A stretch of DNA of 64,000 nt from Pirellulales bacterium. GTDB taxonomy: Bacteria; Planctomycetota; Planctomycetia; Pirellulales; Lacipirellulaceae. Of this stretch, positions 5,140 through 29,416 are shown piece after piece. Where the stretch lies: the NCBI GenBank assembly GCA_019636345.1, contig JAHBXQ010000007.1:124001-188000 (forward strand). The letters are read 5' to 3'. A program made the translations under genes and the position numbers. Every line of letters begins with the position of its first letter. Position 1 is the first letter of the stretch. The notes beneath the pieces are model-generated. The model had not been told where the DNA came from. It saw only the letters and a program-made list of their open reading frames with translations, and did no database searches.

Positions 5140-6531
5140 TCATTCCAGCGTCGCCGCGACGACCTTGGTCGTCCACTCGCGATTGTTGCTGAAGTAACGC
5201 CCGCGCATCCAGACGAGCACCGTCCGCCCGTCGCTTCCTTTGGGAACGATCGGTCGCAAGTTGTCGACGGTCGAGTTCGCTGTGAGCGGGGTCCATGACC
5301 ATGTGGCGCCCCCGTCTGAAGTGACGCCGCGATACAACTCGTAGTGGCGCCGGCCGTCGGCGCGACTTTTCAGCGGGACGCCGGTCGCCGGGTCGGCGCT
5401 CGTCGAAACGTACATCACGTTCGGGTCGCGGGGATCGAGAGCCGCAAGCCCCGTGTAGTCGTCCTCTCCCGGGTAAAGCCGGTGACCGGCGTACGCCGCT
5501 TCGTACTGCCGCCACTCCCGGCCGTCGAATCGGGCGTAGTGATAGCGATGATCGAAGCCCCCTTGCTTCCGCGGCAGGCCGCGGCCGTCGCGCTGCACGG
5601 AGAACGCCGTGTAGGGTCGGCCGTCGGCGTCAAGTTCGACGTCGCACATCCAGGCCACGCGATCAGGATCGCCTGGGAAGATCTTCGTGAAGTCCCACGC
5701 GTTGATCGCGACTTCGCGCGACTGGCTGAGCGGGCCGACTTCCGCGCCGTCGGAACGATGAAGCTTGCCGCCGCGCAAAAAGCCGTGGTACAGAGAATTG
5801 TCGAAGTTTCGCGGGTGGTCCTCGGTGACGACGAAATGCAGCGTTCCCGCCCCGTCGTAGGCATACTTGAGGTACGGGCTGTAGCCGTCGCGACCGTGCA
5901 GCACTCGCCCGCCGTAGCGCCAGGTCGAACCGTCGTCGTCGGAGACGAGGTAGTTGGGGTCGTGATCGACGCCGCGATGAAAATCGTACGTGCGGCCGTC
6001 CGGCAACCGGAACAAATTCGAGTAGGTGACGCTGTCGCCGCCGAACCGCACCGTCTCGCCCGGCGTTTCGAAGTCGACGACAGGTCCCCAGGCGAGCGGA
6101 TTGCCCGGTTCGGAGACGCGGGTGCGAATCGTCCGGTCGGCGCCGTGCCGCGTGTAGACGGCTAAGTAGCGTCCGTCAGGTCGGACCAGCAAGGCCGGAC
6201 CGTCGTGATCGTCAGGCTCCAGATTCGGGTGGAGGACGACGTGTTCGACTTCGCCCGAGGCGAGGTCGAGCACGTCGAGTTGAATGTCGCCTCCGTGCGG
6301 GTCTCGCTCCCCGCGTCCGCCGTCCTTGCGCAATTCGCCCAGTGCCCGGACCGATCCGACGAGAAGTTTCCCCCGATCGACGATCGCCCGCTCGTCCATG
6401 AACCAGGACCACGCGCCATTGTCGTTGAGGACGCGGAACGCATGCGCCGCATAGTTGTCGGGAAGTTCCGCGGAGTGCGCCGTCGCGACGACGGCGCAGC
6501 ACAAGACGAAGGAGGCGACGCGAACGAGCAT
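5140..6531 (-). CDS. Secreted BNR-4 repeat-type beta-propeller protein
   Basis: The protein has 463 residues with a signal peptide (about 1-21, ending AHSA). Sialidase/BNR-like blades include DDDGSTWRYGGRV and the late SDGGATWSWTPL Asp-box. Further family-like blocks are WSWFMDERAIV, DDHDGPALLV and YSNLFRLPDGR. This organisation matches the BNR-4 family found in secreted polysaccharide-active proteins, including some polysaccharide lyases, but I cannot name a substrate. The start gives MLVRVASF; an upstream ATG at 6588 would add 19 residues before the signal peptide. It is convergent with the proline-rich protein gene. Export to the periplasm or outside is expected. Confidence 0.8.
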   Translation of the reverse strand: MLVRVASFVLCCAVVATAHSAELPDNYAAHAFRVLNDNGAWSWFMDERAIVDRGKLLVGSVRALGELRKDGGRGERDPHGGDIQLDVLDLASGEVEHVVLHPNLEPDDHDGPALLVRPDGRYLAVYTRHGADRTIRTRVSEPGNPLAWGPVVDFETPGETVRFGGDSVTYSNLFRLPDGRTYDFHRGVDHDPNYLVSDDDGSTWRYGGRVLHGRDGYSPYLKYAYDGAGTLHFVVTEDHPRNFDNSLYHGFLRGGKLHRSDGAEVGPLSQSREVAINAWDFTKIFPGDPDRVAWMCDVELDADGRPYTAFSVQRDGRGLPRKQGGFDHRYHYARFDGREWRQYEAAYAGHRLYPGEDDYTGLAALDPRDPNVMYVSTSADPATGVPLKSRADGRRHYELYRGVTSDGGATWSWTPLTANSTVDNLRPIVPKGSDGRTVLVWMRGRYFSNNREWTTKVVAATLE

Positions 6532-6772
6532 GGCAGTGCGGCGAAGGAAAAGCGTCGTCGCTCCGCCGGGACCCGCGGTTCCGATCAATCGGCTTCGACG
6601 CGACGCCGCCAGTGTAGGCCAGATCGCCCGGCCTAGTCCAGCGAAGCGATCGATCGCCGGGAGCCGTCGGCCTGCGTCCGTTCTCAGTCGTCGAGCGGAG
6701 CGCCTCGTGACTGACCGGTTGGGTCGAACGTGTCATCCGGCGGCGGTTGGTTGGAATCGCTCCAGGCAGACC

Positions 6773-15514: not shown

Positions 15515-16087
15515 CGGGCGGCTCGATAACGGCGAGACGGGGCGCCGGCGATCTGTGCATGCACGGCTCCGCCGGCAAAGGCGCCTCTAATATACCTGCT
15601 TTGTGTACTGCCGTCGAAATCTCCGGCCGGTGAGGAGCCGCCCCCTTCCGAGGGCTTTCGCAGGGACGAACCGAATCGTAGCAGGCTCCTGGGCTCAAAT
15701 GTTTGCAACGGGTGCGAGAGGGCAACTATAATCCGACCCGTGCAAACCCTGGCGAAATACGAGCAAGGCGAGACTTTCGGCGAGTTGCTAGAGCGCACTC
15801 TCCAAACGCTTCGAAACGCCTTGCAAGAGAGTCGCTTGCGGCAGTTGCTGTAGCAAGGTCGCCCGGCTGATGCTTCTCCGCCGTCAAGGATGCGCCAACG
15901 AACCACGCGAAAACGAGGTGCGCCCAGGGATGATCACCACGATCACCTCCTTGCCGTCATCGCCCAATGCGGGACGAGCCTTGAGTTAACGACTTGCCGA
16001 ATCTCATGAGACGACCTCAACACTGCTTGTGCGCAGACGTTTCCGATCTTGCCTCGCGCTGTGCTTCCAGCCACTGGGAAACATAAA
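15515..16087. other. Divergent intergenic region, 573 bp
   Basis: This region lies between the kinase and the giant secreted protein gene. It contains a near-consensus promoter (15703-15732) and a 37-codon frame immediately after it. I saw no protein domain on either strand. Confidence 0.5.
15703..15732 (+). promoter_or_regulatory. Near-consensus promoter upstream of the giant gene
   Basis: TTGCAA, 18 bases, then a perfect TATAAT. It would start transcription near 15739, giving a leader of about 350 bases before the giant gene at 16088. Confidence 0.5.
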
Positions 16088-19000
16088 ATGGCTTTTGGTT
16101 TCCGATTCCGCCTGCCTGCCAATTCCGCCGCTCGCTGCCGCACGACGAATTGCTCTGACCGACAGTCGGCCGCGCTCGGCTTCGAGACCTTGGAAGCGAG
16201 GCTGCCTCTGGTCGCTAACCTTGCCGCGGCAAGTTTCGCATACGACGAGGTCAGCGAGGCTTGGTTCGGCGGACCTGGACCGCTCGTCGAAGCGCCGTTC
16301 ATGCTAACTGCGGATCTCGGTCTAGAGCAACCGACGGAATCATCTCAGTGGATCGTCCGATTGACCCCGACTGCTGCCGAGGAAGCCGGCGGCGTCGCTG
16401 GAGTCAGTGCGGCGATCGGATCGCTCGGTTTCTCCTACGAGGTGCAAGCCGGGCTCGGCTTGCCGGGCATGGTCCGGCTGGCGACCCTCGGCGCCTCGCC
16501 TCAAGCAACTCTGGCCGAATTGGTCGCCCACCCTGCGATCGCGCTGGCGAGTCCGAATCTCCCCGTCAACGGATCGGCGACTAATCCCGACGATCCCTTT
16601 TACGCTCAAGGGCTCCAATTCGGCCTGCGGCTGAGTCAGTCTTCGGGCGTCGGCAACCTTGCCGTTCGGGACTCGGACATTTCGGCTCCGGAGGCATGGG
16701 ACCTGACGCAAGGATCGTCAGACGTGGTCGTCGCCGTGCTTGATTCGGGGATCGATTACAACCATGTCGATTTGAATCCGAACATATGGACCGATTTCGA
16801 CGGCCGCCACGGCTACGACTTCTACGACGACGACGACGACCCGTTCGACCTGCATGGACACGGCACGCACGTGGCGGGCATCATCGGCGCAGCGGGAAAC
16901 AACGCCACGGGCGTGACCGGAGTCAATTGGGAAGTTTCCCTCATGGGGATTCGCGTGCTCGGTCCGCAGAACACAGGTACGATCGACGACGTTATCGCGG
17001 GCGTCAACTACGTCACGATGCTGGCGAGTCGGTCGACGAACCCCGTGAATGTGCGCGTGATCAACGCGAGCTTCGCCATCGCAGGACAGTTCGTCAACCA
17101 AGGCGCCAAGTCCATGCTGCGCTCCGCAATCGAGTCAGCCGCGACGCGAGAGATTCTCGTGGTGGTCGCTGCCGGCAACGGGGACGTCTTCGGCCAGGGG
17201 ATCGACCTCAACACTTCGCAATACTACCCGGCGACGATCGAACGCGATCAAGCCGTGAATCTCGAGAACCTGATTGTCGTCGCCGCAAGCGATCCGTACG
17301 ACCGGCTTGCTTCGTTCAGCAACTACGGCAGCACTGCGGTTGATCTGGCCGCCCCTGGCGACGACATCATCAGCACGCTTCCTGGAGATCAGTACGGCTA
17401 TCGCGACGGCACCAGCATGGCGACCCCGCATGTATCGGGGGTCGCCGCACTTGTACTGGCGCGCTCGCCCGACCTTTCGGCGAGCGAAGTGCGCGAAGCG
17501 ATTCTCAATACGGTCGATCCGCTCGCCACGCCCGAAGATCGCGCCAAAGTGGCGACCGGCGGCCGCTTGAACGCTCACGGCGCCGTTGCTTACGACGCCT
17601 TCGCCCCGCGGGCGACGATTGTGAGCGCTCCCGACGTGATCACGGCCGGCAGTGCGGTGCGGCATGTGACAATCCGCTATTCGGCTCGGACTCCGATTGA
17701 CCAAACGACCATCGGAATCGACGACATCATCGTCCGTCGGGGTGCTGAAGACGCCCCGGTGACGGTCCAGAGCGTCACCTCCGCTTCCGTTCCGGGCAAT
17801 CCGAACGCTCTCGACGCGACCTATGCGTTGATCGGCCCGGGGGAAGGGATTTGGAATGCGCTTGACAACGGTCTCTATACGGTGGAAGTCATCGCTGGCG
17901 CCGTCGCCGACACTGCGGGTTCGAATCGGCCCGCCCAGAAGAACGAGTATCGGAGGTTCGCCGACGAATTTGCCGTCAACGTCACGGCCGGAGCGTTGTA
18001 CGTCAACCGAGCCGACGACTCGCTGGACGGTTCCGGCGGGTTGACTCTGCGGGCGGCAGTCCAACAGGCGAACGCGAGTCCGGGTTCGGTGATTTTTCTT
18101 GCCCCGAACAACTACGTACTTTCGCTGGCCGGAGCCGGCGAAGACTCCGGCCTGACGGGCGATCTCGACGTCACAGGAACGTTCACGATCGCCGTCCAGG
18201 GGAGCGGCTCCGTCACGATCGACGGGGGACTGCTCGATCGGGTGTTCGACGTTCACCCTGAGGCTCACCTGACGCTGGAAGGCATCGCCGTCACCCGGGG
18301 CGCGCTGACCGGCGGCGACGGGGCAGGGATTCGCAATCGCGGGACGCTGACGTTGATTCGATCCGTGGTGGCTGACAATCATTCCATGGGCAACGGCGGA
18401 GGAATCGGCAACTTCGGCGAGTTGACCGTGACGGACAGCACTGTGACCGGCAATTTCGCAGCGCTCAACGGGGGGGGCGTTTACAATAGTTCTACCGGCG
18501 TCGCCTCGTTCGCTTCGTCGACGATCGACACGAACGTGGCCGCGGGACAGGGCTCGGTCGGGTACAACTTGGTCGGAACTCCCATACGAGCGAATTCTCC
18601 CGCGGCAGGCTATCAGCGGCAGCCTCGCGTTTCGATCAACGAAGCGGGACAGTTGGCAATTGCTTGGATCGACTACGTCAGCGACTTCGATCAGCGCGTC
18701 GACGTCCGCCGGTTCCTGTTCGACGGCACGGCCGTCGACTCGGTCAATATCAACGTCACCGGGCAGACTCCTGGCGGCCTGTCGACCGTGCGTCGCTTCG
18801 CGGACGTCGCCATCGCCCCAGACGGAAGCTTCCTTGTCGCGGGACCGGCGACGATAAATTCCAACTGGGACGTTCAGTATCGAGTCTATCCGGCCGAAGG
18901 AACGCCGACGTCGCTCGCGAACGCCAATGCGCTGACGACGGGCAATCAGTTTGAAACTCGAGTCGCCGTGGCTCCTGACGGGACCTACTCCGTCGTTTTT

Positions 19001-22000
19001 TGGACCAACTCCGAGTCGGGGGGCAATGGCGACGGTGCGTTGCTGCGACGGTTCGACGCCGCTGGAGCCAACCTCGGCGTCGAATCGTCGATCCCTCAGA
19101 TTGTCGGCGGCCATCAGAACTATCCGGCGATCGCCCATTTCGACAACGGGGAGGCAATCGCCGTCTTCTCCGACACGGGCCTGGACGGCGTCGGCAACGG
19201 GGTTGGCGTGTACGCGCGGTTCGTCAATGCGTCAGGAGTTCCGTACGGCAATCAATTCCAGGTCAATTCCACGCTGCCAGGAAATCAGACCTACGCCGAT
19301 GTCGCAGCCGGCCCCGAAGGATTCGTCGTCGCTTGGCTCGACGAAGGGCGAGGCGTGGTTGCCCAGCGATTCAATCGCGCGGGCCAAAAGCTCGCCTCCA
19401 ACGGAGTCAATGAGATCGAGATCGCCTCGATTGCAGGCGTCACGTACCCGTCGGTCGCCATGCTTCCCGGCGGGGGCTTCGTCGTCGCTTGGGGAGAATC
19501 ACGGGCTAACCCCGCGCTCTACGACATCTTCGTGCAGGCCTACGACGGCGCCGGCGAAGCGATTGGCGCCAAGACGAGGGTTTCGGCGGCAGCAGTCACG
19601 GGATACGCCGAGGACCGCCCGTCCGTGGCCTCGAACTCTGCGGGGCAAGTCGTCGTTGCTTGGGGCGGGTTCGACGCCGGCTCGGACGGTCGTGACATCT
19701 TCGTGCAGCGGCTGCAGTTCACGGGGACGACCGTCGGAGGCCAAGGAGGCGGCGTCTACAACGCAGGCAGTCTCTCTGCCGTCAACGCGACGATTTCGGC
19801 GAACGTCGCCAAGACCCGGGGAGGAGGACTTTCCAATGCCGACGACGCGGATTCGACCCTCGTGAACGTCACTGTCGCCGACAATTCCATCTCCGGCCCC
19901 GCGATTGGAACGACGTTGATCCGAAGCGGCGCCGAGGCGCTTGTCAACGACGTGACGAGCGGCGTTCAAGACCGAGTTCGCGTTGCGACGGCGACTTCGG
20001 GCGCCGGCGTCATCCTGTGGACCGATGCCGGAACCTCGCTACGGGCTCAACGATTCAACTCTTCGGGAGGGCTCGTCGGGAGCGACTTTCAACCCAACGA
20101 CGTCGCAGCGGACGCCGGGGACGTTGCGGTCGGTGCAAACGGCGACGCAGCGTTCGTCTATCGCGTGAATTCGGGAGGCTCCGCCGGGTGGGACGTTCGC
20201 GCGAAGCTCTACAACGCCCAGGGGGTCGTCATTCGCTCCGAATTCGTCGTCAACTCCGGGGGAGCGGGCGCCGAACCGGGCGACCAGTTGAACCCGCGAA
20301 TCAAGGCCCTGCCGGGCGGGGGCTATCTCGTCGCGTGGTATGACTTGCAAAGCGGCTCCGCCGTGTTGCACGGTCGGTTTCTTGATGCTGCGGGCAACGT
20401 GCAGGGCGCCGAGTTTTCGATCAGCACGACTGCACCCGGCTATGCGTTTGACGCTTTGACCGAAGTCGACTTCCATCCCCTGGCCGACGGGACGGCGTGG
20501 GCCGTGTACCGCGCCTCGTCGCCACTGGGGGACAACATCGTCGGGCAACGGTTGAGTGCCGCCGGAGCAAAGCTCGGAGGCGAGGTGCCGATCAGCGGCA
20601 ACTTGACAGGCGCCGATCGCAAGCCGGTGATTCTAGGCGACGACGACGGCTTCGTCGTCCTCTGGCGAAACGCCGCCAGCGGGATCCTGATGCGACGCTT
20701 TGATCCGACAGGGGCGCCTCTGGGCGACCCAATCCCTGTGGCGGCGAGCGTTCACGACACGTCGAACGTCGGGGTGACGCAGCTGCCCAACGGAGCGCTC
20801 CTTGCCGTCTGGGACGACTACTCGTCGGGGGGGGCGACGGGGGGGCCGGCTCAAGGTCGGCTCATCGGTCGTGACGGAGCCTTCCTAAGCGACGCCTTCG
20901 CGCTGTCGACCACGAGCGGTTGGCAAACGAACCCCGGGATCGCGCGTCTTGCCGGCCGTCAGTTGCTGCTCGCATGGGCCGGCCCGACCGCCGGCGACGC
21001 CGCCGGAGTCGTCGCCCAGATTTTCGTCCTACCGGAGTTTCCTGGCAGCGGCGTCGCCAATGCAGCGGCAGGGTCCGTCACGTTGCAGAATACAATCGTC
21101 GCGGCCAACAACTCGGCCGACGGCCGCATCGACGTCAGCGGCGACTTGTTCGCAATTGGCGGCAACGTCGTCGGGCGCATCGGCGTCGCCACAGGGGCGA
21201 TTGGCGGAGTCAACTCAAATCGGGTTGGTGACGCTTCCTACCCGCTTGACCCGCTGCTGGGACCGTTGGCTCTCAACAACGGTACGACCCGCAGCCATGC
21301 GCTGCTCCCGGGCAGTCCGGCCCTCGATGCGGGCTTGCTGGCAGGTGCGCCCGCGAACGACCAGCGCGGCGTGGAACGAAAGGACTCCCTTGGCGTAGCG
21401 CTCGTGGACGGCGACGGCGACGGCATGCCTGCCGTGGACGCCGGAGCGGTGGAGAGTTTTTATGCCTCGATCAGCGGCGTCATGTACCACGATCGCAACG
21501 GCAACGGCGTGCGGGACCCCGCCAACAACGAAACGCCCCTGGCCGACTGGATCGTCTATCTCGACCTCGACGAGGATGGACGGCTTGACGACAACGAACC
21601 GCGTACAATCGCCGGCGCCGACGGTTCCTACCACTTTGTCGGATTGAATCCGGGAAAATATGTCGTCGCCGCCGTGAACAAAGCCGGGTGGCAACCGACA
21701 TACGTGAGCGCTACGATCATCGATCAGGAGGTCGACAACAGCAACGGCGGACAGGCTGACGGGCTGCTCGGAGCAAGCTCACTGGCGGCTGCGCCGGACG
21801 GGAAGTGGGTGTACGTCGCCGGCGCAGCCGAATCGGAGAGCGCGATCGCCCGTTTCAGTCGCAATGCGACGACGGGAGCGCTTGACTTTCTTGACGCGAA
21901 GACGACGAGCGAACTCGTCGGAGGCTTCAATGTCCTCAGCTCCGTCGTCAAGATCGTCGTCGCCGAGTCGAACTTCAGCGGGGTCAAGACCTGGCATCTC

Positions 22001-25000
22001 TATGCACTGTCGTCGCACGGCGCTTTGACGGTATTCGCAGTGAATCAACTGACGGGGGAACTGACGTTTGTCGAGTCGATACGCGAGGCGCACCTCAACA
22101 TCGCTGCGACCCCGAAGCAGTTCGTCGGCTCGACGTCGCTCACGGTCAGTCCCGACGGCAGGCAGATCTACGTTTCCAACAACAGCGCAACCGCTCTCAG
22201 CGGCGGAGCGATCTTTGTCTTCGATCGCACTGCTCCGCAGGCGTTCTTGACGTTCCGGCGACGCCTGGTCAACGATCCTCCCAACGCCCTCGACGGTCTG
22301 GGCGGGGAGAGCATGGTCGTCTCACCGGACAACAAGTTCGTCTACATTCTCGGCGACTCGCCCTCTCGGCCCGGCAGCATTGCCGTTTACGAGCGATTGA
22401 CGACAGGGTCGCCTTACTTGGCGCTGCGGTCGATCGTCAAGACTGGCGGCTCCGACGTCGAGAACAACGTCGTCATCGGCCTGGAAGGCGCCCGCGAGAT
22501 CGTCATGAGTCCGGTGACTCCTGAAGCCCCGGCCGGGCGATTCGTCTATGTGACGGCGGAATCCGACGACGCCGTCACTGTGTTTGAGCGGAATGCCGCG
22601 ACCGGCGCACTGACATTCGTACAGTCGCTTGCAAACGGGGCCTACGACGACGTCGGCAAGCTGGTGAGTCGGCTGGAACGTCCTGTCGCGCTCGCAATCT
22701 CTCCCGACGGCGACCGAGTCTATGTCGGGGCCTCTGAAACGATTCTGCCGGGCACTCCCAACGAAGAGCTGGTCGGTTCCATCGTTGTCTTCGCCCGCAA
22801 TTCTTCCACCGGTCGGTTGACGTACGTCGATTCCATCAAGGACTCCACGGCCGACGCCTACGGGAACGGTATCGAGTACATCGATCAAGTCACGGGGCTG
22901 TTGGCGGCAGGGAACGCGACGTTCTACGCCGCAGCCAGCAGCGGATTCTTCAATAACGCGATCACAGCGTTTCAGCGCGACAGCGTCGGGGCCCGAGTCG
23001 TTGTTGTAGGCGTCGGAGAGCGACGCTTGAACGTCGATCTTTCGAGCATCGCGCTGCCTGGTTCGATTAGCGGAATCGTCTACGAGAACCGCAACGGCAA
23101 TCAGACGCCTGACGTCGGCGAGCCGGGTTTGTTCAACTGGCAGGTCTTTCTCGACGTGAACGGCAACGGCGTCTGGGATTCGCAATTGCCTGGACAGTTC
23201 AACGTCGGCGAACCCATCGTTTCGACCGACGTGTCAGGGTTCTACGTGTTCGCCGAGGTCGAGGCGGGTACGGCCTATACGGTCAGGCCGGTGCTGCAAA
23301 GCGGCTGGCAGGCGACGGCGCCAAGCGCCGGATCGTACGCGGTGAATCTTGAGCCCGGCGAGGGCGTCTTACGACACGATTTTGGACTTGTGTTGCAGAA
23401 CGTGATCGGCGCGGGGCAAAACAGTCTGGAGGGAATCGTGTTCGAGGACGTCGATGGCGACGGCGTTCAAGCTCCGACCGGAGAACGCGGACTCGGAGGG
23501 GTGCGAGTCTTTCTCGATCTCAATGAAAACGGAGTCCGAGACGTCGGAGAACCGACGACCGTGACGAATGCCGCGACGGGCGTCGGACTGCAGGTGGGCA
23601 AGTACAGTTTCGCCAACGTGCCGCAGGTCCCCTTCACGGTCCGTATCGACCCGGTCGACGTAGGAACCAATCGACGGGTCGTCTCGCCCGTGGGGAACGT
23701 GCTGTTAGAGCAAACATACGATCTGGGAACTAGCGTCAATCCTGTCGCGTTGATCGCAACAGATTTCGATGACGACGGCGACGACGATCTGGCGACGCTC
23801 ACTTTGGACGGAGTCGTCACGATCTTCTTCAACGACGGATCGGGAGGATTCAGCGGGCCGACTCTGCGTCTCCCGAACGTGCTCGACGCGACGTCGATGA
23901 CTGTCGGCGACTTCAACAACGACGGTCTGCCCGATATCGCCCTGGCGAGTCGTACGTCCAGCAAGGTTTGGATTGCCATGAATCGCACGACGCCGGGCGG
24001 AGTGCCGACGTTTGATCCCTACAACGTCTCGGCGTTGGTGGTCAGTCGACCAAATCGGGACATTTTCGCTGCCGACCTGAACGGAGACGGGTTTGACGAC
24101 TTGGCGTTGGCCCCGGTTATGCCGTCGCTCAACGTACAGAGCGAAGTTCTGGTGGTGCACAGCACGACATTGCAAGGCTCGATGACGCCGACCTTTGCGC
24201 CTCCGCCGGGGGGCGGCGTGACGCTTGTGGGGCTGAAGACGACCGACGTCGTCAAGGCGGTTGACGTCGACGGCTCGGGAGGGCTCGATCTCGTCGTGCT
24301 CCATCGATCGAGTCGCACCCTTCAGGTCCTGTTGAAGAGCGGGAACTCCTATCTTCCGCAAACCGAAATCGTTTTGCCCACGGGAAAGAACGTCGATGCT
24401 CCGTTCTCTCTCGCGTTCGGCGAGTTCAACGGGGATTCGAAAACCGACTTCGTGATCGGGAACTCGCACACTTCGATCGTGTCGCTGCTGCTCAGCGAGC
24501 CGAACGCCAACTACGGTTCGCAAGGGTGGAGTCTTCTCGACGGCGTTCCGCTTGACGCCAAGAGCATTCCCCGCGATGTAGCAACGGTCGACGTCGACGG
24601 CGACGGCGACCTTGACATCCTCGTCGGAGCCGTCGAGCCGGCGGGAGTGGTCGTCCTCCGCAATATCGGCACGTTGACCGCTCCGGCGTTTGCGCCGGCG
24701 GAGACGACGGGCGTCGCCGTCCTGCAGACGAACGACTTGCCCGGCGTCAAGGCGATTGCCGTCGTCGACGTCGGCCAGGGCTTGCCCGTCATCGCTGCGG
24801 TCAACGGGAAGGCAGACGCGGGGTCGCTGATCGTCTTTGCCAATCAGCGCCTCAACGGGGGACATCGCACCATCCCTTCCGGTGGGTCGGAAGTCGCACT
24901 TCTCAATTACGCGCTGCAGGTCGTTCTGCCTGGAGACTATGTGCCCGACGGGGCGGTCGACGGCGGCGACTTCTTGCTCTGGCAGCGACAACGCGGGCAA

Positions 25001-25501
25001 AGCTCCGGAGTCGCCGGATTGGGAGCCGACGGGGTTGCCGACGGCATTGTGGACGGACAGGATCTCGACGTGTGGAGAGCGAACTACGGTTCAGCTTACG
25101 CTTCCCAAATGGAATTCCAGGTCGCTGCCGCGTCGACCGAGTTCGAGAACGTTCGTACGGACGCGATCGGAGCAGCCTTGCCCAGTGACTTGGAGCTTGA
25201 ACTTGCCGCCAGGAATCTATGGCGACATCCTAACGACGCCGTGTTCAGTCGGCTTCTGCCAAAGCACGAGTCGGACGAATTGGGGATTGCGCGGGCGCCC
25301 GACAAGAGATCGTCGTTTTATCGAACTCGCACGCTGGCAAGCAGCGAATCGTTGGTCGTCCCTCGCCCGGAATCGACTCGCAGGGACGTCAGGAACGTGC
25401 TTCTAGTCAAGGCGTTCGACGAGTCGTTCGGCGAGGACATGTTGGAGTCAATGTGGTCAGACCTTGGCGAACGGAAACTGAGCCTTCGACGTTTCCGCTG
25501 A
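16088..25501 (+). CDS. Giant secreted subtilase (S8) mosaic with beta-helix, propellers, SdrD-B, FG-GAP and dockerin modules
   Basis: The protein has 3137 residues. The N-terminus has the motif FETLEARLPL (32-41). A propeptide-like region (about 80-165) precedes an S8 protease with an intact triad: Asp219 (AVLDSGID), His258 (HGHGTHVAG), Ser443 (GTSMATPH) and oxyanion Asn364. At about 635-1790 lies a right-handed beta-helix of the CSLREA/choice-of-anchor type (LTLRAAVQQAN; GSPALDAG; DAGAVE), interrupted by two long beta-propeller-like insertions. Then come an SdrD-B-like module (VMYHDRNGNG, from nt 21469), a lactonase-like propeller (nt about 21770-23000), two more SdrD-B-like modules, FG-GAP/VCBS calcium repeats (DFDDDGDDDLA, nt about 23755-24840) and a dockerin pair (DGAVDGGDFLLWQR, DGIVDGQDLDVWR). 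Translation starts at ATG 16088; an upstream in-frame start adds 13 residues. The likely role is a cell-surface or secreted protease; its substrate is unknown. Confidence 0.9.
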   Translation: MAFGFRFRLPANSAARCRTTNCSDRQSAALGFETLEARLPLVANLAAASFAYDEVSEAWFGGPGPLVEAPFMLTADLGLEQPTESSQWIVRLTPTAAEEAGGVAGVSAAIGSLGFSYEVQAGLGLPGMVRLATLGASPQATLAELVAHPAIALASPNLPVNGSATNPDDPFYAQGLQFGLRLSQSSGVGNLAVRDSDISAPEAWDLTQGSSDVVVAVLDSGIDYNHVDLNPNIWTDFDGRHGYDFYDDDDDPFDLHGHGTHVAGIIGAAGNNATGVTGVNWEVSLMGIRVLGPQNTGTIDDVIAGVNYVTMLASRSTNPVNVRVINASFAIAGQFVNQGAKSMLRSAIESAATREILVVVAAGNGDVFGQGIDLNTSQYYPATIERDQAVNLENLIVVAASDPYDRLASFSNYGSTAVDLAAPGDDIISTLPGDQYGYRDGTSMATPHVSGVAALVLARSPDLSASEVREAILNTVDPLATPEDRAKVATGGRLNAHGAVAYDAFAPRATIVSAPDVITAGSAVRHVTIRYSARTPIDQTTIGIDDIIVRRGAEDAPVTVQSVTSASVPGNPNALDATYALIGPGEGIWNALDNGLYTVEVIAGAVADTAGSNRPAQKNEYRRFADEFAVNVTAGALYVNRADDSLDGSGGLTLRAAVQQANASPGSVIFLAPNNYVLSLAGAGEDSGLTGDLDVTGTFTIAVQGSGSVTIDGGLLDRVFDVHPEAHLTLEGIAVTRGALTGGDGAGIRNRGTLTLIRSVVADNHSMGNGGGIGNFGELTVTDSTVTGNFAALNGGGVYNSSTGVASFASSTIDTNVAAGQGSVGYNLVGTPIRANSPAAGYQRQPRVSINEAGQLAIAWIDYVSDFDQRVDVRRFLFDGTAVDSVNINVTGQTPGGLSTVRRFADVAIAPDGSFLVAGPATINSNWDVQYRVYPAEGTPTSLANANALTTGNQFETRVAVAPDGTYSVVFWTNSESGGNGDGALLRRFDAAGANLGVESSIPQIVGGHQNYPAIAHFDNGEAIAVFSDTGLDGVGNGVGVYARFVNASGVPYGNQFQVNSTLPGNQTYADVAAGPEGFVVAWLDEGRGVVAQRFNRAGQKLASNGVNEIEIASIAGVTYPSVAMLPGGGFVVAWGESRANPALYDIFVQAYDGAGEAIGAKTRVSAAAVTGYAEDRPSVASNSAGQVVVAWGGFDAGSDGRDIFVQRLQFTGTTVGGQGGGVYNAGSLSAVNATISANVAKTRGGGLSNADDADSTLVNVTVADNSISGPAIGTTLIRSGAEALVNDVTSGVQDRVRVATATSGAGVILWTDAGTSLRAQRFNSSGGLVGSDFQPNDVAADAGDVAVGANGDAAFVYRVNSGGSAGWDVRAKLYNAQGVVIRSEFVVNSGGAGAEPGDQLNPRIKALPGGGYLVAWYDLQSGSAVLHGRFLDAAGNVQGAEFSISTTAPGYAFDALTEVDFHPLADGTAWAVYRASSPLGDNIVGQRLSAAGAKLGGEVPISGNLTGADRKPVILGDDDGFVVLWRNAASGILMRRFDPTGAPLGDPIPVAASVHDTSNVGVTQLPNGALLAVWDDYSSGGATGGPAQGRLIGRDGAFLSDAFALSTTSGWQTNPGIARLAGRQLLLAWAGPTAGDAAGVVAQIFVLPEFPGSGVANAAAGSVTLQNTIVAANNSADGRIDVSGDLFAIGGNVVGRIGVATGAIGGVNSNRVGDASYPLDPLLGPLALNNGTTRSHALLPGSPALDAGLLAGAPANDQRGVERKDSLGVALVDGDGDGMPAVDAGAVESFYASISGVMYHDRNGNGVRDPANNETPLADWIVYLDLDEDGRLDDNEPRTIAGADGSYHFVGLNPGKYVVAAVNKAGWQPTYVSATIIDQEVDNSNGGQADGLLGASSLAAAPDGKWVYVAGAAESESAIARFSRNATTGALDFLDAKTTSELVGGFNVLSSVVKIVVAESNFSGVKTWHLYALSSHGALTVFAVNQLTGELTFVESIREAHLNIAATPKQFVGSTSLTVSPDGRQIYVSNNSATALSGGAIFVFDRTAPQAFLTFRRRLVNDPPNALDGLGGESMVVSPDNKFVYILGDSPSRPGSIAVYERLTTGSPYLALRSIVKTGGSDVENNVVIGLEGAREIVMSPVTPEAPAGRFVYVTAESDDAVTVFERNAATGALTFVQSLANGAYDDVGKLVSRLERPVALAISPDGDRVYVGASETILPGTPNEELVGSIVVFARNSSTGRLTYVDSIKDSTADAYGNGIEYIDQVTGLLAAGNATFYAAASSGFFNNAITAFQRDSVGARVVVVGVGERRLNVDLSSIALPGSISGIVYENRNGNQTPDVGEPGLFNWQVFLDVNGNGVWDSQLPGQFNVGEPIVSTDVSGFYVFAEVEAGTAYTVRPVLQSGWQATAPSAGSYAVNLEPGEGVLRHDFGLVLQNVIGAGQNSLEGIVFEDVDGDGVQAPTGERGLGGVRVFLDLNENGVRDVGEPTTVTNAATGVGLQVGKYSFANVPQVPFTVRIDPVDVGTNRRVVSPVGNVLLEQTYDLGTSVNPVALIATDFDDDGDDDLATLTLDGVVTIFFNDGSGGFSGPTLRLPNVLDATSMTVGDFNNDGLPDIALASRTSSKVWIAMNRTTPGGVPTFDPYNVSALVVSRPNRDIFAADLNGDGFDDLALAPVMPSLNVQSEVLVVHSTTLQGSMTPTFAPPPGGGVTLVGLKTTDVVKAVDVDGSGGLDLVVLHRSSRTLQVLLKSGNSYLPQTEIVLPTGKNVDAPFSLAFGEFNGDSKTDFVIGNSHTSIVSLLLSEPNANYGSQGWSLLDGVPLDAKSIPRDVATVDVDGDGDLDILVGAVEPAGVVVLRNIGTLTAPAFAPAETTGVAVLQTNDLPGVKAIAVVDVGQGLPVIAAVNGKADAGSLIVFANQRLNGGHRTIPSGGSEVALLNYALQVVLPGDYVPDGAVDGGDFLLWQRQRGQSSGVAGLGADGVADGIVDGQDLDVWRANYGSAYASQMEFQVAAASTEFENVRTDAIGAALPSDLELELAARNLWRHPNDAVFSRLLPKHESDELGIARAPDKRSSFYRTRTLASSESLVVPRPESTRRDVRNVLLVKAFDESFGEDMLESMWSDLGERKLSLRRFR

Positions 25502-25603: not shown

Positions 25604-28600
25604 TTACCAACCCCGGAAGAGCCGCCAACCTCGCCGTTTTCCGGGCAAGATATCGTCAGCCGCATCGCGCAAGGCGATCTCGCGGGCCAACGCAATGCCG
25701 GCCAGGGTCTTGGCGTCGCGACGAGAGCGATCGTCCGTCGGCGCTCCGTCGAACATCGGAGCGGCGGCGACGATCTGCGGCGAGTCCGTCGTCTGGCCGA
25801 AGGCGGCGCTCCATCTTCCCAAGTCGACCGCATCGACGGTCCCGTTGCCGTCGGCGTCTCCGTCGGCGCGCCCGGCGTTCGTCCTCCCGTACCCCCGTTG
25901 CCAGGCGAGAAAATCTCCCCCTTCGACCTTGCCGTCGCTATTGAAGTCGGCCGGGTGCAGCGGGCTTTCAACGACGGCCTTCATTCCGAACCTGTTCGGA
26001 ACGAACGACTCGACGGGCAAGTTTCCGCCGCCGAACCACACCGAATGATCTTGCCACAACTGCGAGTTCGTTTTCCCCAAGTAGGCAGTCGGCAGTCCGG
26101 GGATTTGCGGCGCGGCGCCTGTCGGAAGAGGGATGGCGTCGGCTGCTTGGGCAGGGAAGTACAACCGGAGTATCGTTCCGTTGGACAGGACGATTCGCAA
26201 TTCTTCGGGGCTGAACAACGATTCGACCTTTCGATCCAGGTTCTCGAAGAGCGCAAGCTTCTCCTTGGCTCCGACGTCGTACCACTCACGTCCGTTGATT
26301 TGCGCTGAGGTCAAGGGCACGAACTCGACGGCGCTCGGCACGTTTAGCGACCGAAGCGTGTCATGACCCTTGCCGATCACCACGTTTCGGATATTCGCAA
26401 ACTGTCCTCCAAAAATCGTCGTGTCTCGGCGGACGGGCACGACCAAGCCTTCGACGAACGCCTCGACTCGCACGTTATCAAAGGTAATGTCATGGACGAT
26501 TCGATTCGTGCCGATTCCCGTCGGTGAGGCTAGCGCCAGATCGGGCAACAGATTGTAGCGACCAATGATCGTTGCGTTGCGGATCGCAATCTGACCGGAG
26601 TAGAACAACTGCACGCCGAATTTCGTGTTCCACACCGTGAAGTCGTCGATGAACGACTGGCCATCGTTCAAGAACGTCTGATGGAACCAGATTTCCAGGC
26701 CCTGATTGACGCCGTAGGCCAGATTGTCCTCGAACCGCTTGATGGGGGCGGTTCCGATCGGAATCGCTGGGCGGCCATAGGCGATGGACGGGTCGTCGAG
26801 ATTGGCCGTGTCGAACATCGCCAAGGAGGAAGACGTGAAATAGCCGTACGCCCCGCTTCGCGTTCCGGCGACGATGTTGCCGACGACCTCGATCCCGGGG
26901 CCTTGAAACCAGAACCCATGGCCGTTGTGGCCGAAGTCATGAATTGCACGACGCGTCAAAGGTCCGCCGCTGCCGGAGCCGACGGAGTTCATCGCGAGGT
27001 TGTACCGCATGGCGCCGATTTCGTTGCCGTCTTCACCGACGAACGACGCCCCGAGCACGTCGATCGCCACGTTGTACTCCATGACCACGTTGCCCTGATG
27101 ATTCACGAATCCCCAACCGGGACTGCCGACGACCACGTTGCCTCGCAAAATCCCGGGCGGGATCGCGGCATAGGTGCCGGTGTGGTGAAAGTGAACCGCG
27201 TACCGGGCGCGCGGGTTTGCACCCCCCGATTGGAGCACCCCGTTGACGACGACCGGGTCGGTGACCAACTGCGTCTTGTCGGTGCGGCCGAAGCCCTTGA
27301 CCAAGACGTTTTCCATCCAGGCGTTCGGGCTCTCCGCGAACGCAATATGCGGTCGTTCCTGCGCGTTTGATTCCTCTTCGCCCAGAAACTGCACGTTGCG
27401 ATTCGTATTGGCGACTTGAATTGCGTACCCGTCCGGAGCGTCGTGGTTATAGGTGAGCCCGCGATTGAGAGTAATCGTCGTGCCGTTGACGGCAGTGATC
27501 GTCGCCCGCTCGGAATCGAAGTAATCGCCGATCGGATTCACCCCCGCAATGACCAATTCGTCTCCGACGCGCCACCCGGTCGGGGCCTGTGTCAAATGCA
27601 GCACCGAATGATTCTGCATCGGATCAACGGCGAGGGTCGCATACGGGGTCACGACTCGGCCAAACATCCGAACTTCGCCGCGACTGATCAGCCCTCGACT
27701 GGCCAGCCCCGGGTCCCACGCAGTGTCGATCGGCCCGCCGTCCGGGAAGATCACCTTCGCCGTGACATGATCGGCGATTGGCGCCGTCGGCGTCCCCACG
27801 TGGAATTTTCCCGTTGATCCGACCACGATCGTATCAACTCGCATGACGGTGTCGACGTTCGTTCGGAAAACGAGCGTTCCGTCAACTCGCAGGGTCTTGA
27901 TCGCCGTCGTCATGATCGCATCGAACGTGATCACGACGTTGCCGGGAATAAAAACCTTCTCGCCGGCGCGCGGCACGACCCCGGCCGACCAGACGCTCGG
28001 GGTCGACCAGTTGCCGCTCGACAAGGCCCGATTTGTCGCGTCCGCTTCTTTCGTGATCCAATAGGCGTCGTAGGCCAACGTGCCAGGAAACGGAGGCGCG
28101 TTCGTATTGTGTGCATGGCTGCCGGGCGTATAGTTCACAGGCGGATACTGTTCGATTTCAACCGCCATGTAGTTCGAAAGTACGTTGAGCGGCAAAGCCA
28201 TAAGCTGAGCCCGCGTCAGTTGCGCCCTCACGGCGTCGGACCAGCCGTTGATGACGAACAAGTCCTGCATCAACGCGAACTGGGCGGGAGTCACCAACGG
28301 AATCTGATGGTCCAGCAGGTGAGGGAGGTCGTAAACCGTCAGCGATCCGATTTGCGACGGAGTCAGCCACCCGCGTTGCTGCACAGTCATCCACAAGATG
28401 AGCGTCTTATCGACCTGCACCGCCTGAATCTGTTGCTGCGTCAACGCGGCCCGCTGGTCGGCGCTGAATTGCACGTTGAAGGTATAATCCTGATCAACCG
28501 CGGCAATCTGGGCCAGCGTGAGGTAGGGAATCTGGCTCACCGGCAAAACATGGTAATCACCCAGAATCACGTTCTGGATTTGAGCCGGAGTCAGCCAACC

Positions 28601-29416
28601 GGCTTGAACCTGCGTGAGCCAAGAGATCCGGACGTCGCCGCTGGGATGCACCGACAACGCCTGAATTTGCGATTGCACCAGCGCCCCGCGCTGCGCACTC
28701 GAGAACTGCATGCGAAACGTAAAGTCGTTCGTGACGCCGGCAATTTGAGCCGGCGAGATCAGCGGGATTTGGCTGACCTCCAAATGCCTCCATTCATGAA
28801 CCGGCAAAGTATGGATCTGGGCTGTGCTCAACCACAGCTTCTGCGGCGTGGTCAGCAGGCTGATCGTGATCGTCGCTGCATTCAGCGCCGGGATCTGAGA
28901 GACGGTCAGCGCCGCTCGAGCCGTCGCCTCCCATTGGTTGAACGCAAAGGTGTCGGGGATCGTCGAGATCTGCGTCGGAGTCAGCAACGGGATCTGACTC
29001 GGGTCGAGAAATCGGAAGTCCGTGTACGGGAGCGACCTGACTTGTGCCGGCAAGAGAGCCAGGCGCTGCGCCTCCGTCAACAAGCTGATCGTGATCGTGG
29101 ACACCTGGAGCGACTGGACTTGAATCGAAGTCAACGCCGCCCGGTTGACAGAAGGCCAGGTGTTGAGCGAAGTCGTGTCCGGGATCGTCGCGATCTGCGA
29201 CGGAAGCAGCAACGGCACTTGCGCCGGCGTCAATTCGTAGAACCGCCAGTAAGGGAGGCTTGTCACGTCGTCGTCGGGGACGTTGGCCGGGATCGGGTCG
29301 AACCACTCGACGAGCGAGACGTATTCCGCGTCGCACGTCAGAGCTTCCGCCGCCAGCATACGACGACCTTCGAGGGACTCAAACCGCAGCTTTCTCAGAT
29401 ACGAACGAGAACGCAT
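25604..29416 (-). CDS. Secreted protein with five 75-residue repeats, G8 domain, beta-helix and dockerin
   Basis: The protein has 1270 residues. It starts with FESLEGRRML (12-21), the planctomycete N-terminal motif. Residues 58-415 are five tandem units of about 75 residues built on LTPAQIxxL-type steps (listed separately). A G8 domain follows (about 465-590: NWSTPSVWSAGVVPRAGEKV, then strands TLRVDGTLVF and MRVDTIVVG). Next is a right-handed beta-helix (about 600-1000) with His-rich loops (AVHFHHTG, HDFGHNGHGFWF), as in CEMIP/PKHD1L1-like proteins. A dockerin pair (DFNSDGKVEGGDFLAWQRG, DADGNGTVDAVDLGRWS, about 1165-1220) precedes a basic tail. It is convergent with the giant subtilase gene, 102 bp apart. 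Polysaccharide binding or cleavage is plausible from G8 relatives but not shown. Confidence 0.85.
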   Translation of the reverse strand: MRSRSYLRKLRFESLEGRRMLAAEALTCDAEYVSLVEWFDPIPANVPDDDVTSLPYWRFYELTPAQVPLLLPSQIATIPDTTSLNTWPSVNRAALTSIQVQSLQVSTITISLLTEAQRLALLPAQVRSLPYTDFRFLDPSQIPLLTPTQISTIPDTFAFNQWEATARAALTVSQIPALNAATITISLLTTPQKLWLSTAQIHTLPVHEWRHLEVSQIPLISPAQIAGVTNDFTFRMQFSSAQRGALVQSQIQALSVHPSGDVRISWLTQVQAGWLTPAQIQNVILGDYHVLPVSQIPYLTLAQIAAVDQDYTFNVQFSADQRAALTQQQIQAVQVDKTLILWMTVQQRGWLTPSQIGSLTVYDLPHLLDHQIPLVTPAQFALMQDLFVINGWSDAVRAQLTRAQLMALPLNVLSNYMAVEIEQYPPVNYTPGSHAHNTNAPPFPGTLAYDAYWITKEADATNRALSSGNWSTPSVWSAGVVPRAGEKVFIPGNVVITFDAIMTTAIKTLRVDGTLVFRTNVDTVMRVDTIVVGSTGKFHVGTPTAPIADHVTAKVIFPDGGPIDTAWDPGLASRGLISRGEVRMFGRVVTPYATLAVDPMQNHSVLHLTQAPTGWRVGDELVIAGVNPIGDYFDSERATITAVNGTTITLNRGLTYNHDAPDGYAIQVANTNRNVQFLGEEESNAQERPHIAFAESPNAWMENVLVKGFGRTDKTQLVTDPVVVNGVLQSGGANPRARYAVHFHHTGTYAAIPPGILRGNVVVGSPGWGFVNHQGNVVMEYNVAIDVLGASFVGEDGNEIGAMRYNLAMNSVGSGSGGPLTRRAIHDFGHNGHGFWFQGPGIEVVGNIVAGTRSGAYGYFTSSSLAMFDTANLDDPSIAYGRPAIPIGTAPIKRFEDNLAYGVNQGLEIWFHQTFLNDGQSFIDDFTVWNTKFGVQLFYSGQIAIRNATIIGRYNLLPDLALASPTGIGTNRIVHDITFDNVRVEAFVEGLVVPVRRDTTIFGGQFANIRNVVIGKGHDTLRSLNVPSAVEFVPLTSAQINGREWYDVGAKEKLALFENLDRKVESLFSPEELRIVLSNGTILRLYFPAQAADAIPLPTGAAPQIPGLPTAYLGKTNSQLWQDHSVWFGGGNLPVESFVPNRFGMKAVVESPLHPADFNSDGKVEGGDFLAWQRGYGRTNAGRADGDADGNGTVDAVDLGRWSAAFGQTTDSPQIVAAAPMFDGAPTDDRSRRDAKTLAGIALAREIALRDAADDILPGKRRGWRLFRGW
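28172..29245 (-). repeat. Five tandem ~75-residue coding repeats
   Basis: The units cover residues 58-133, 134-208, 209-287, 288-363 and 364-415 (the last truncated). Each contains xxLxxxQIPLLTPAQI, a short aromatic segment, then RAALTxxQIQAL and LTxxQxxWLTPAQI. The nucleotide copies have diverged, so the array is old rather than a recent slippage product. Confidence 0.85.

Follow-up and report, generated by a model that had tools for sequence, protein, structure and literature searches.

INTRODUCTION

What might a planctomycete do with a protein that puts a long array of short repeats in front of a domain related to the human hyaluronan-handling proteins CEMIP and TMEM2? The gene that raises this question lies in a stretch of 64,000 nucleotides from a Pirellulales bacterium of the family Lacipirellulaceae (GenBank assembly GCA_019636345.1, contig JAHBXQ010000007.1, positions 124,001 to 188,000), which we call the window. 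An initial annotation, made from the sequence alone, had described five tandem repeats of about 75 residues ahead of a G8 domain, a β-helix, and a dockerin, and the limits it gave for the gene are exact. We consider it fairly likely that the product is a secreted or surface carbohydrate-active protein, in which a β-helix of the CEMIP/TMEM2 type is carried on an exchangeable, stiff stalk of eight-residue repeats (octads). Neither part is new, but the joining of an octad arm with a G8/β-helix core looks new: searches of open-licence PubMed Central, some of which covered the best-ranked papers only, brought up no protein that combines ALTTAQ-type repeats and G8. Hence, the earlier view that this repeat together with G8 was undescribed in a planctomycete appears to hold for the combination and not for the repeat type, which already has a name.

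25604 to 29416, minus strand: whole gene, 1,270 amino acids, an intact open reading frame (ORF) with an ATG start, encoding an export motif, the octad arm, the G8/β-helix core, and a dockerin-like tail

Along the protein, a Planc_extracel motif (residues 8 to 24) is followed by the octad arm (48 to 432), the G8 domain (476 to 593), the β-helix (to about residue 1150), the dockerin-like stretch (1156 to 1199), and a short basic end.

RESULTS AND DISCUSSION

The arm is built of octads

Residues 41 to 430 match themselves best when shifted by 75 positions (z 10.1; the maximum over all offsets in 100 residue shuffles was 4.7), which confirms the five tandem units. They start at residues 62, 137, 212, 291, and 367, with spacings of 75, 75, 79, and 76, and together span residues 62 to 423; the first four are whole and the fifth is capped. 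A second period, 8, which the initial annotation did not name, stands out in the same comparison (z 5.8). The 75-residue unit consists of nine steps of about 8 residues, two of them longer by one or two residues, and the step reads L-T-x-x-Q-(I/V)-x-x, with Thr or Ser at position 2, in the window protein and five orthologues. These six proteins supplied 35 stretches of 75 residues, 33 of them distinct, for a consensus that omits units longer or shorter than this as well as the loci L069, L089, and L092 altogether; one of the 33 is the capped fifth unit of the window read on into the linker. The second octad is the most regular (L in 32/33, T in 27/33, and Q, the Gln at position 13, in 33/33 of the stretches).

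28121 to 29275, minus strand: octad solenoid arm as modeled, residues 48 to 432 (AlphaFold2, predicted local distance difference test [pLDDT] 92.4, predicted template modeling score [pTM] 0.77, no strands)
29009 to 29233, minus strand: 75-residue unit 1, residues 62 to 136
28784 to 29008, minus strand: 75-residue unit 2, residues 137 to 211
28547 to 28783, minus strand: unit 3, 79 residues, residues 212 to 290
28319 to 28546, minus strand: unit 4, 76 residues, residues 291 to 366
28148 to 28318, minus strand: capped fifth unit, residues 367 to 423, with a 14-residue helix at its end

The number of units ranges from about 5 to 13 among the octad-armed proteins. In Lacipirellula limnantheis I41 (locus L086), codons 238 to 687 of the ORF hold a tandem duplication of a three-unit block of 675 bp with 97.3% DNA identity; because this duplication is recent, arm length appears to be still altered in this way.

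The arm model, computed from nine alignment rows, is all helical. The arm is thus predicted to be ordered rather than disordered, in line with the extended solenoid proposed in the initial annotation. The model contains 44 helices of at least 3 residues, all of which except the last span 3 to 7 residues. In 16 of 18 LTxxQ octads, a helix starts directly past the Thr/Ser, and in 22 of 26 matches to the looser pattern LxxxQ, it starts directly past position 2. On this model, the most natural reading of the octad is that of a self-contained code for starting a helix: a start right behind Thr/Ser would make the Thr the N-cap, Gln N3, Leu N′, and Ile/Val N4. We take the Thr/Gln pair to be a capping box and the Leu with Ile/Val to be a hydrophobic staple.

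The repeat falls into the ALTTAQ class

The initial annotation took this repeat type, combined with G8 in a planctomycete, to look undescribed; for the repeat type itself, this view is not supported. By its sequence, the arm repeat belongs to the class that Pfam has named ALTTAQ repeat (PF20080). All nine arm segments scanned match PF20080 at an E-value of ≤1, and two of six whole orthologues exceed its cutoff of 26.4 bits (L088 with 51.3 and L092 with 81.8 bits), the other four scoring 17.7 to 21.7. The window arm scores 16.5 bits and is not listed for the whole protein, and we file it as ALTTAQ-like, not as a member of the Pfam family.

A tblastn search with the arm found matching proteins on 57 plasmid records, mostly proteobacterial by the listed organism names. 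The three giant proteins that we read (L003, L004, and L005) consist of octads nearly throughout, L004 having a different C-terminal part, and score more than 1,100 bits against PF20080. Their longer periods correspond to 17 and 27 octads (136 and 216 residues), and offsets of 7 and 10 octads are also strong. Glycosyltransferase genes lie near all three, and a type I secretion system also lies near L004. A profile made from these three proteobacterial proteins only gives the window arm 61.3 bits, with none of 300 shuffles above 6.7, and over 80 ORFs with a G8 core it finds 7 at E-values of ≤3.3e−9 and no other under 0.95. At the sequence level, the structure 9zem of the Protein Data Bank (PDB), named HeliScrew4, is matched by both the arm profile (E-value, 2.3e−15) and the ALTTAQ profile (6.8e−27). 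Text searches of open-licence PubMed Central found no paper naming the ALTTAQ repeat class or HeliScrew4.

Could the arm instead be an independent, convergent octad array without ALTTAQ descent? This alternative concerns only the origin of the arm, and we regard it as a serious possibility, if not the one we favor. The repeats are short, an eight-residue capping-box step can arise easily, and the window arm stays under the Pfam cutoff. Searched over the genome of the window, PF20080 has its sole match at an E-value of ≤10 in this gene (11.7 bits; E-value, 1.5), and 10 of 14 control genomes also give matches at that level; at ≤0.001, it matches in 1 of 392 Planctomycetota genomes, which is not that of the window. 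Moreover, leucine-spaced repeats cross-match, as the arm profile does with leucine-rich repeats, so that E-values alone are no proof of common descent with ALTTAQ. Convergence does not sit well, however, with the two orthologues that clear the cutoff at 51.3 and 81.8 bits, or with the proteobacterial profile, which cleanly parts the 7 armed ORFs from the 73 others. We retain the assignment to the ALTTAQ class, which gains from it a clear domain context and a simple N-cap reading of its step.

Two other proposals and one comparison were discarded. A leucine-rich-repeat identity of the arm is rejected because the model is free of strands, despite the profile matches. A phage origin is rejected since 50,697 phage records, searched with the arm by tblastn, contain nothing that matches at an E-value of ≤1e−3. 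An alignment of the two repeat alignments with hhalign reached a probability of 95.7 over 11 columns only and was not used.

The arm model also resembles ARM-type superhelices and mesothelin, with modest scores (8cx3_B, Foldseek probability 0.72; 8fsl_E, VIA Z 4.6, 157 residues aligned, root-mean-square deviation [rmsd] 4.8). Mesothelin has 24 short helices (PMC10035497; this and the other papers are cited from parts of their text), and its family, including stereocilin and otoancorin, has been proposed to be superhelical lectins (PMC2628672). Is the arm then the recognition part, a mesothelin-like lectin or protein-binding groove, with the β-helix as only a scaffold or an adhesin? The glycosyltransferase genes near the three ALTTAQ giants and the secretion system near one of them would also fit. 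Yet these fold scores lie within the range of common helical repeats, mesothelin is absent from the PDB sequence matches listed for the arm profiles (the best 60 of 66, and 11 of 11 for the ALTTAQ profile), and unrelated RTX repeats fill the same place in other proteins (see below), which argues against one essential ligand bound by the arm. We judge a recognition arm with a passive β-helix to be unlikely, and a kinship with mesothelin is set aside as having no support among the sequence matches listed and weak fold support. The structure 9zem is absent from the best 50 rows of Foldseek or VIA for the arm, which has no bearing on the 9zem fold.

The G8/β-helix core is a relative of CEMIP and TMEM2

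The core model, computed with AlphaFold2 from 47 alignment rows, has as its top solved structure the TMEM2 ectodomain, 8c6i, by Foldseek (E-value, 1.6e−15) as well as by VIA (Z 25.3, 557 residues aligned, rmsd 3.4 Å, 17% identity), where the next row is another β-helix (Z 19.4). When the core profile is searched against PDB sequences, this entry alone matches at an E-value of ≤0.001 (1.8e−20). The Pfam cutoff of CEMIP_beta-hel, 27.3 bits, is passed by all six orthologues scanned (31.9 to 56.5 bits). These results bear out the CEMIP-type β-helix of the initial annotation and its order of G8, β-helix, and dockerin behind the repeats, with G8 scoring over its cutoff and the other two just under theirs. 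The core is a CEMIP/TMEM2 relative; we do not call it a CEMIP orthologue.

25937 to 28108, minus strand: G8/β-helix core as modeled, residues 437 to 1160 (AlphaFold2, pLDDT 92.0, pTM 0.92; Z 25.3 with TMEM2 ectodomain 8c6i)
27638 to 27991, minus strand: G8 domain, residues 476 to 593 (Pfam PF10162, 54.5 bits, cutoff 22.9; a genome search gives the same place)
26825 to 27229, minus strand: CEMIP-type β-helix stretch, residues 730 to 864 (Pfam PF24606 CEMIP_beta-hel, 26.5 bits, just below the cutoff of 27.3)
27347 to 27349, minus strand: H690, invariant, also in TMEM2
27182 to 27205, minus strand: RYAVHFHH motif with R738, Y739, H742, and H744 (RYPVHFHL in TMEM2)
27098 to 27100, minus strand: H773, invariant, also in TMEM2
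27020 to 27034, minus strand: EDGNE motif with E795 and E799 (EDGIE in TMEM2)

The 47-row core profile skips about 170 residues of TMEM2 behind its G8 part (166 to 334 in the sequence of the PDB chain). The TMEM2 crystal paper places a small β-sandwich and a lectin-like domain 1 after the G8 part (PMC10206443), and from this order along the chain, the skipped residues would be these inserted domains, so that the bacterial cores would lack them.

Nine residues, R673, H690, R738, Y739, H742, H744, H773, E795, and E799, are identical in all 47 alignment rows and are also present in TMEM2. The rows are the window protein and part of 80 relatives, kept out of 89 found, each of which matches one of two peptide patterns (residues 766 to 773 and 792 to 799); because relatives were picked by these patterns, the invariance of W768, H773, E795, and E799 is partly selected. 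In 19 rows fetched without the patterns, R673, H690, Y739, H742, H744, and H773 are present in 19/19, and R738, E795, and E799 in 18/19. W768 is missing in 2 of these rows and differs in TMEM2. R711 and K714, invariant in the 47 rows, were omitted because they are changed or missing in 2/19 and 4/19 of the unselected rows, respectively, and lie outside the TMEM2 alignment. We propose H690, R738, H742, H744, H773, E795, and E799, seven polar residues common to planctomycetes, haloarchaea, and human TMEM2, as a candidate active site. Cores with the same invariant residues occur in haloarchaea (L108 and L113) and marine Synechococcus (L104 and L119), which suggests wide horizontal spread of the core sequence.

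Why keep such residues if the β-helix did not work on a substrate? In one alternative, the β-helix is a noncatalytic structural adhesin, and arm and core together are part of the biofilm or cell wall surface architecture of Pirellulales. In the portion cited, the crystal study of TMEM2 reports that hyaluronidase activity was not seen and that an active site could not be assigned (PMC10206443), and the dockerin-like tail recurs in the genome, as expected for a larger set of proteins handled alike. However, the strict conservation of histidines and charged residues across bacteria, archaea, and human TMEM2 exceeds the needs of a scaffold, and an intrinsic hyaluronan-cutting activity of TMEM2 has been reported (PMC10474455). 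We find a purely structural β-helix rather unlikely and prefer a carbohydrate-active core, which offers a tractable bacterial relative of TMEM2 and CEMIP, proteins of disputed activity, with a short list of directly mutable residues.

Different arms occur at the same position

Among 392 genomes sampled over the phylum, the G8/β-helix core is present in 22, including that of the window, which is the only one with the octad arm. Of 43 genomes from the family of the window, 9 have hits to the arm profile, and all 20 hits lie within ORFs that hold a G8 core (one spans a stop codon). Among the carriers are Lacipirellula limnantheis I41, Bythopirellula polymerisocia Pla144, and five metagenome bins. 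Twenty core ORFs were read: 8 have octads at the N-terminus, and in 10 this position is taken by an RTX array. Nine of these 10 come from the family of the window and one from another family of the order. Pfam confirmed RTX in the three such proteins scanned, including that of Adhaeretor mobilis, with 24 to 29 stretches each. RTX-armed loci of the same and a related family are L073 to L082, L100, L103, and L116. Octads suggested ahead of the core of L155 by a pattern count are borne out neither in the sequence nor by profiles.

A quick tree of 38 cores (9 octad-armed, 11 RTX-armed, and 18 other) was made from the window protein, 10 of a set of 20 loci, and 27 of the 80 relatives, with support from the Shimodaira-Hasegawa-like approximate likelihood ratio test (SH-aLRT) only. 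The octad-armed cores form one clade (SH-aLRT 100) within one Pirellulales family, and the RTX-armed cores are placed elsewhere, with 10 of the 11 grouped in one clade. Judged by these core sequences, octad and RTX arms probably arose at this position through separate gains. A direct swap between octad and RTX arms fits less well, as cores with no known arm adjoin the octad clade, albeit with a support of only 81. Neither a nine-octad unit nor the parallel use of these two arm types on a common core was found in open-licence PubMed Central, where the searches were in part limited to the best-ranked papers.

A working model

We infer that the protein would be exported, to the surface or outside the cell. 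The right-handed β-helix of the CEMIP/TMEM2 (G8) type would be the working part, most likely binding and cutting an acidic polysaccharide, and the stiff N-terminal ALTTAQ-type arm would carry it and keep it away from the anchor. Each octad would set its own helix start and give one helix of 3 to 7 residues, nine octads would make a 75-residue unit, and the addition or loss of units would set the length of the arm (about 5 to 13 units). The arm may position the β-helix as a spacer, perhaps also as a binding surface, a task that in other G8 proteins would fall to RTX β-rolls. That RTX arms occupy this place elsewhere speaks for a role as a spacer or binding arm, and more for spacing than for one specific ligand.

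Several points weigh against this model. In four families, PF20080, CEMIP_beta-hel, dockerin, and Planc_extracel, the window protein stays under the Pfam cutoff. Leucine-rich repeats in the PDB are also picked up by the arm profile (E-value, 2.9e−13), and the similarity of the arm to solved structures is weak (Foldseek best E-value, 8e−3; VIA best Z 6.0 at an rmsd of 10.6). Any activity of the core on glycans is a prediction, and hyaluronan cleavage by TMEM2 itself is disputed, with the cited parts of PMC10206443 and PMC10276149, the latter denying it, on one side and those of PMC10474455 on the other. Finally, there is no clear glycan degradation cluster among the six neighboring genes scanned, none of which names a substrate.

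A bolder version makes the arm a stiff, length-adjustable, lectin-like ruler that guides glycans and feeds polysaccharide to an H690/H742/H744/H773/E795/E799 active site shared with the human protein; in this bacterial lineage, it would have assumed the presentation of substrate proposed for the inserted lectin-like domain of animal TMEM2/CEMIP. We hold this to be quite improbable; if true, arm length (5 to 13 units) would set the product size.

Terminal motifs and neighboring genes

29345 to 29395, minus strand: planctomycete N-terminal extracellular motif, residues 8 to 24 (Pfam PF07595 Planc_extracel, 21.4 bits, under the cutoff of 25.5)
25820 to 25951, minus strand: dockerin-like tail, residues 1156 to 1199 (Pfam PF00404, dockerin type I, 21.3 bits, just below the cutoff of 22.9)

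Given its subthreshold score, we name the tail dockerin-like. It was found again in at least 5 other places in the genome, and the gene would therefore be one of a wider group whose products share the same handling. Besides the window protein, L085 has such a tail after the core (seen by eye; Pfam has no listing there). The remaining octad-armed ORFs stop 4 to 20 residues past the core, and L083 has a dockerin-like stretch ahead of it. Matches to putAbiC (Pfam) and to DNA polymerase III psi and NuoE (NCBIfam) were far under their cutoffs and were taken as chance.

Of the six neighbors, one has no Pfam match. The others are a giant with subtilase, SdrD, and FG-GAP parts, a protein kinase, a TonB-dependent receptor, an exporter of the TauE type, and a protein with a BNR_4 domain.

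16049 to 25501, plus strand: surface protein of 3,150 amino acids (subtilase S8, SdrD B-like, lactonase-type propeller, FG-GAP repeats); the gene points toward the octad-arm gene, 102 bp away
5140 to 6588, minus strand: protein of 482 amino acids containing BNR_4 (67.4 bits), encoded at a distance of about 19 kb from the octad-arm gene

BNR-type repeats are carried by some polysaccharide-degrading propellers, and the BNR_4 protein may be a second glycan-related gene.

Comparison with known systems

The PF20080 giants of Rhizobium, Rhodovastum, and Pseudomonas plasmids, and 9zem, share with the window arm the tandem octad L-T-x-x-Q-(I/V)-x-x. The three proteobacterial arrays keep an exact 8-residue step, and their longer periods measure 136 or 216 residues, whereas the window arm has a nine-octad unit of 75 residues, in which two of the octads are longer than 8, and serves as an arm on another domain. 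Mesothelin, stereocilin, and otoancorin, right-handed solenoids of many short helices according to the cited excerpts, resemble the arm model with modest fold scores and appear in none of the sequence matches listed. CEMIP (KIAA1199/HYBID) and TMEM2 (CEMIP2) have G8 followed by a right-handed β-helix, as does the window core, and TMEM2 and the core share R-Y-x-V-H-F-H, the H773 site, and E-D-G-x-E; in place of the inserted β-sandwich and lectin-like domain 1 of TMEM2, the window protein has an octad arm and a dockerin-like tail. A further parallel is provided by the RTX-armed G8 proteins, such as that of Adhaeretor mobilis. They have the same core and the same order, an N-terminal repeat array and then G8 and β-helix, but their arm is a calcium-binding RTX nonapeptide array, and their cores stand elsewhere in the core tree than the octad-armed ones.

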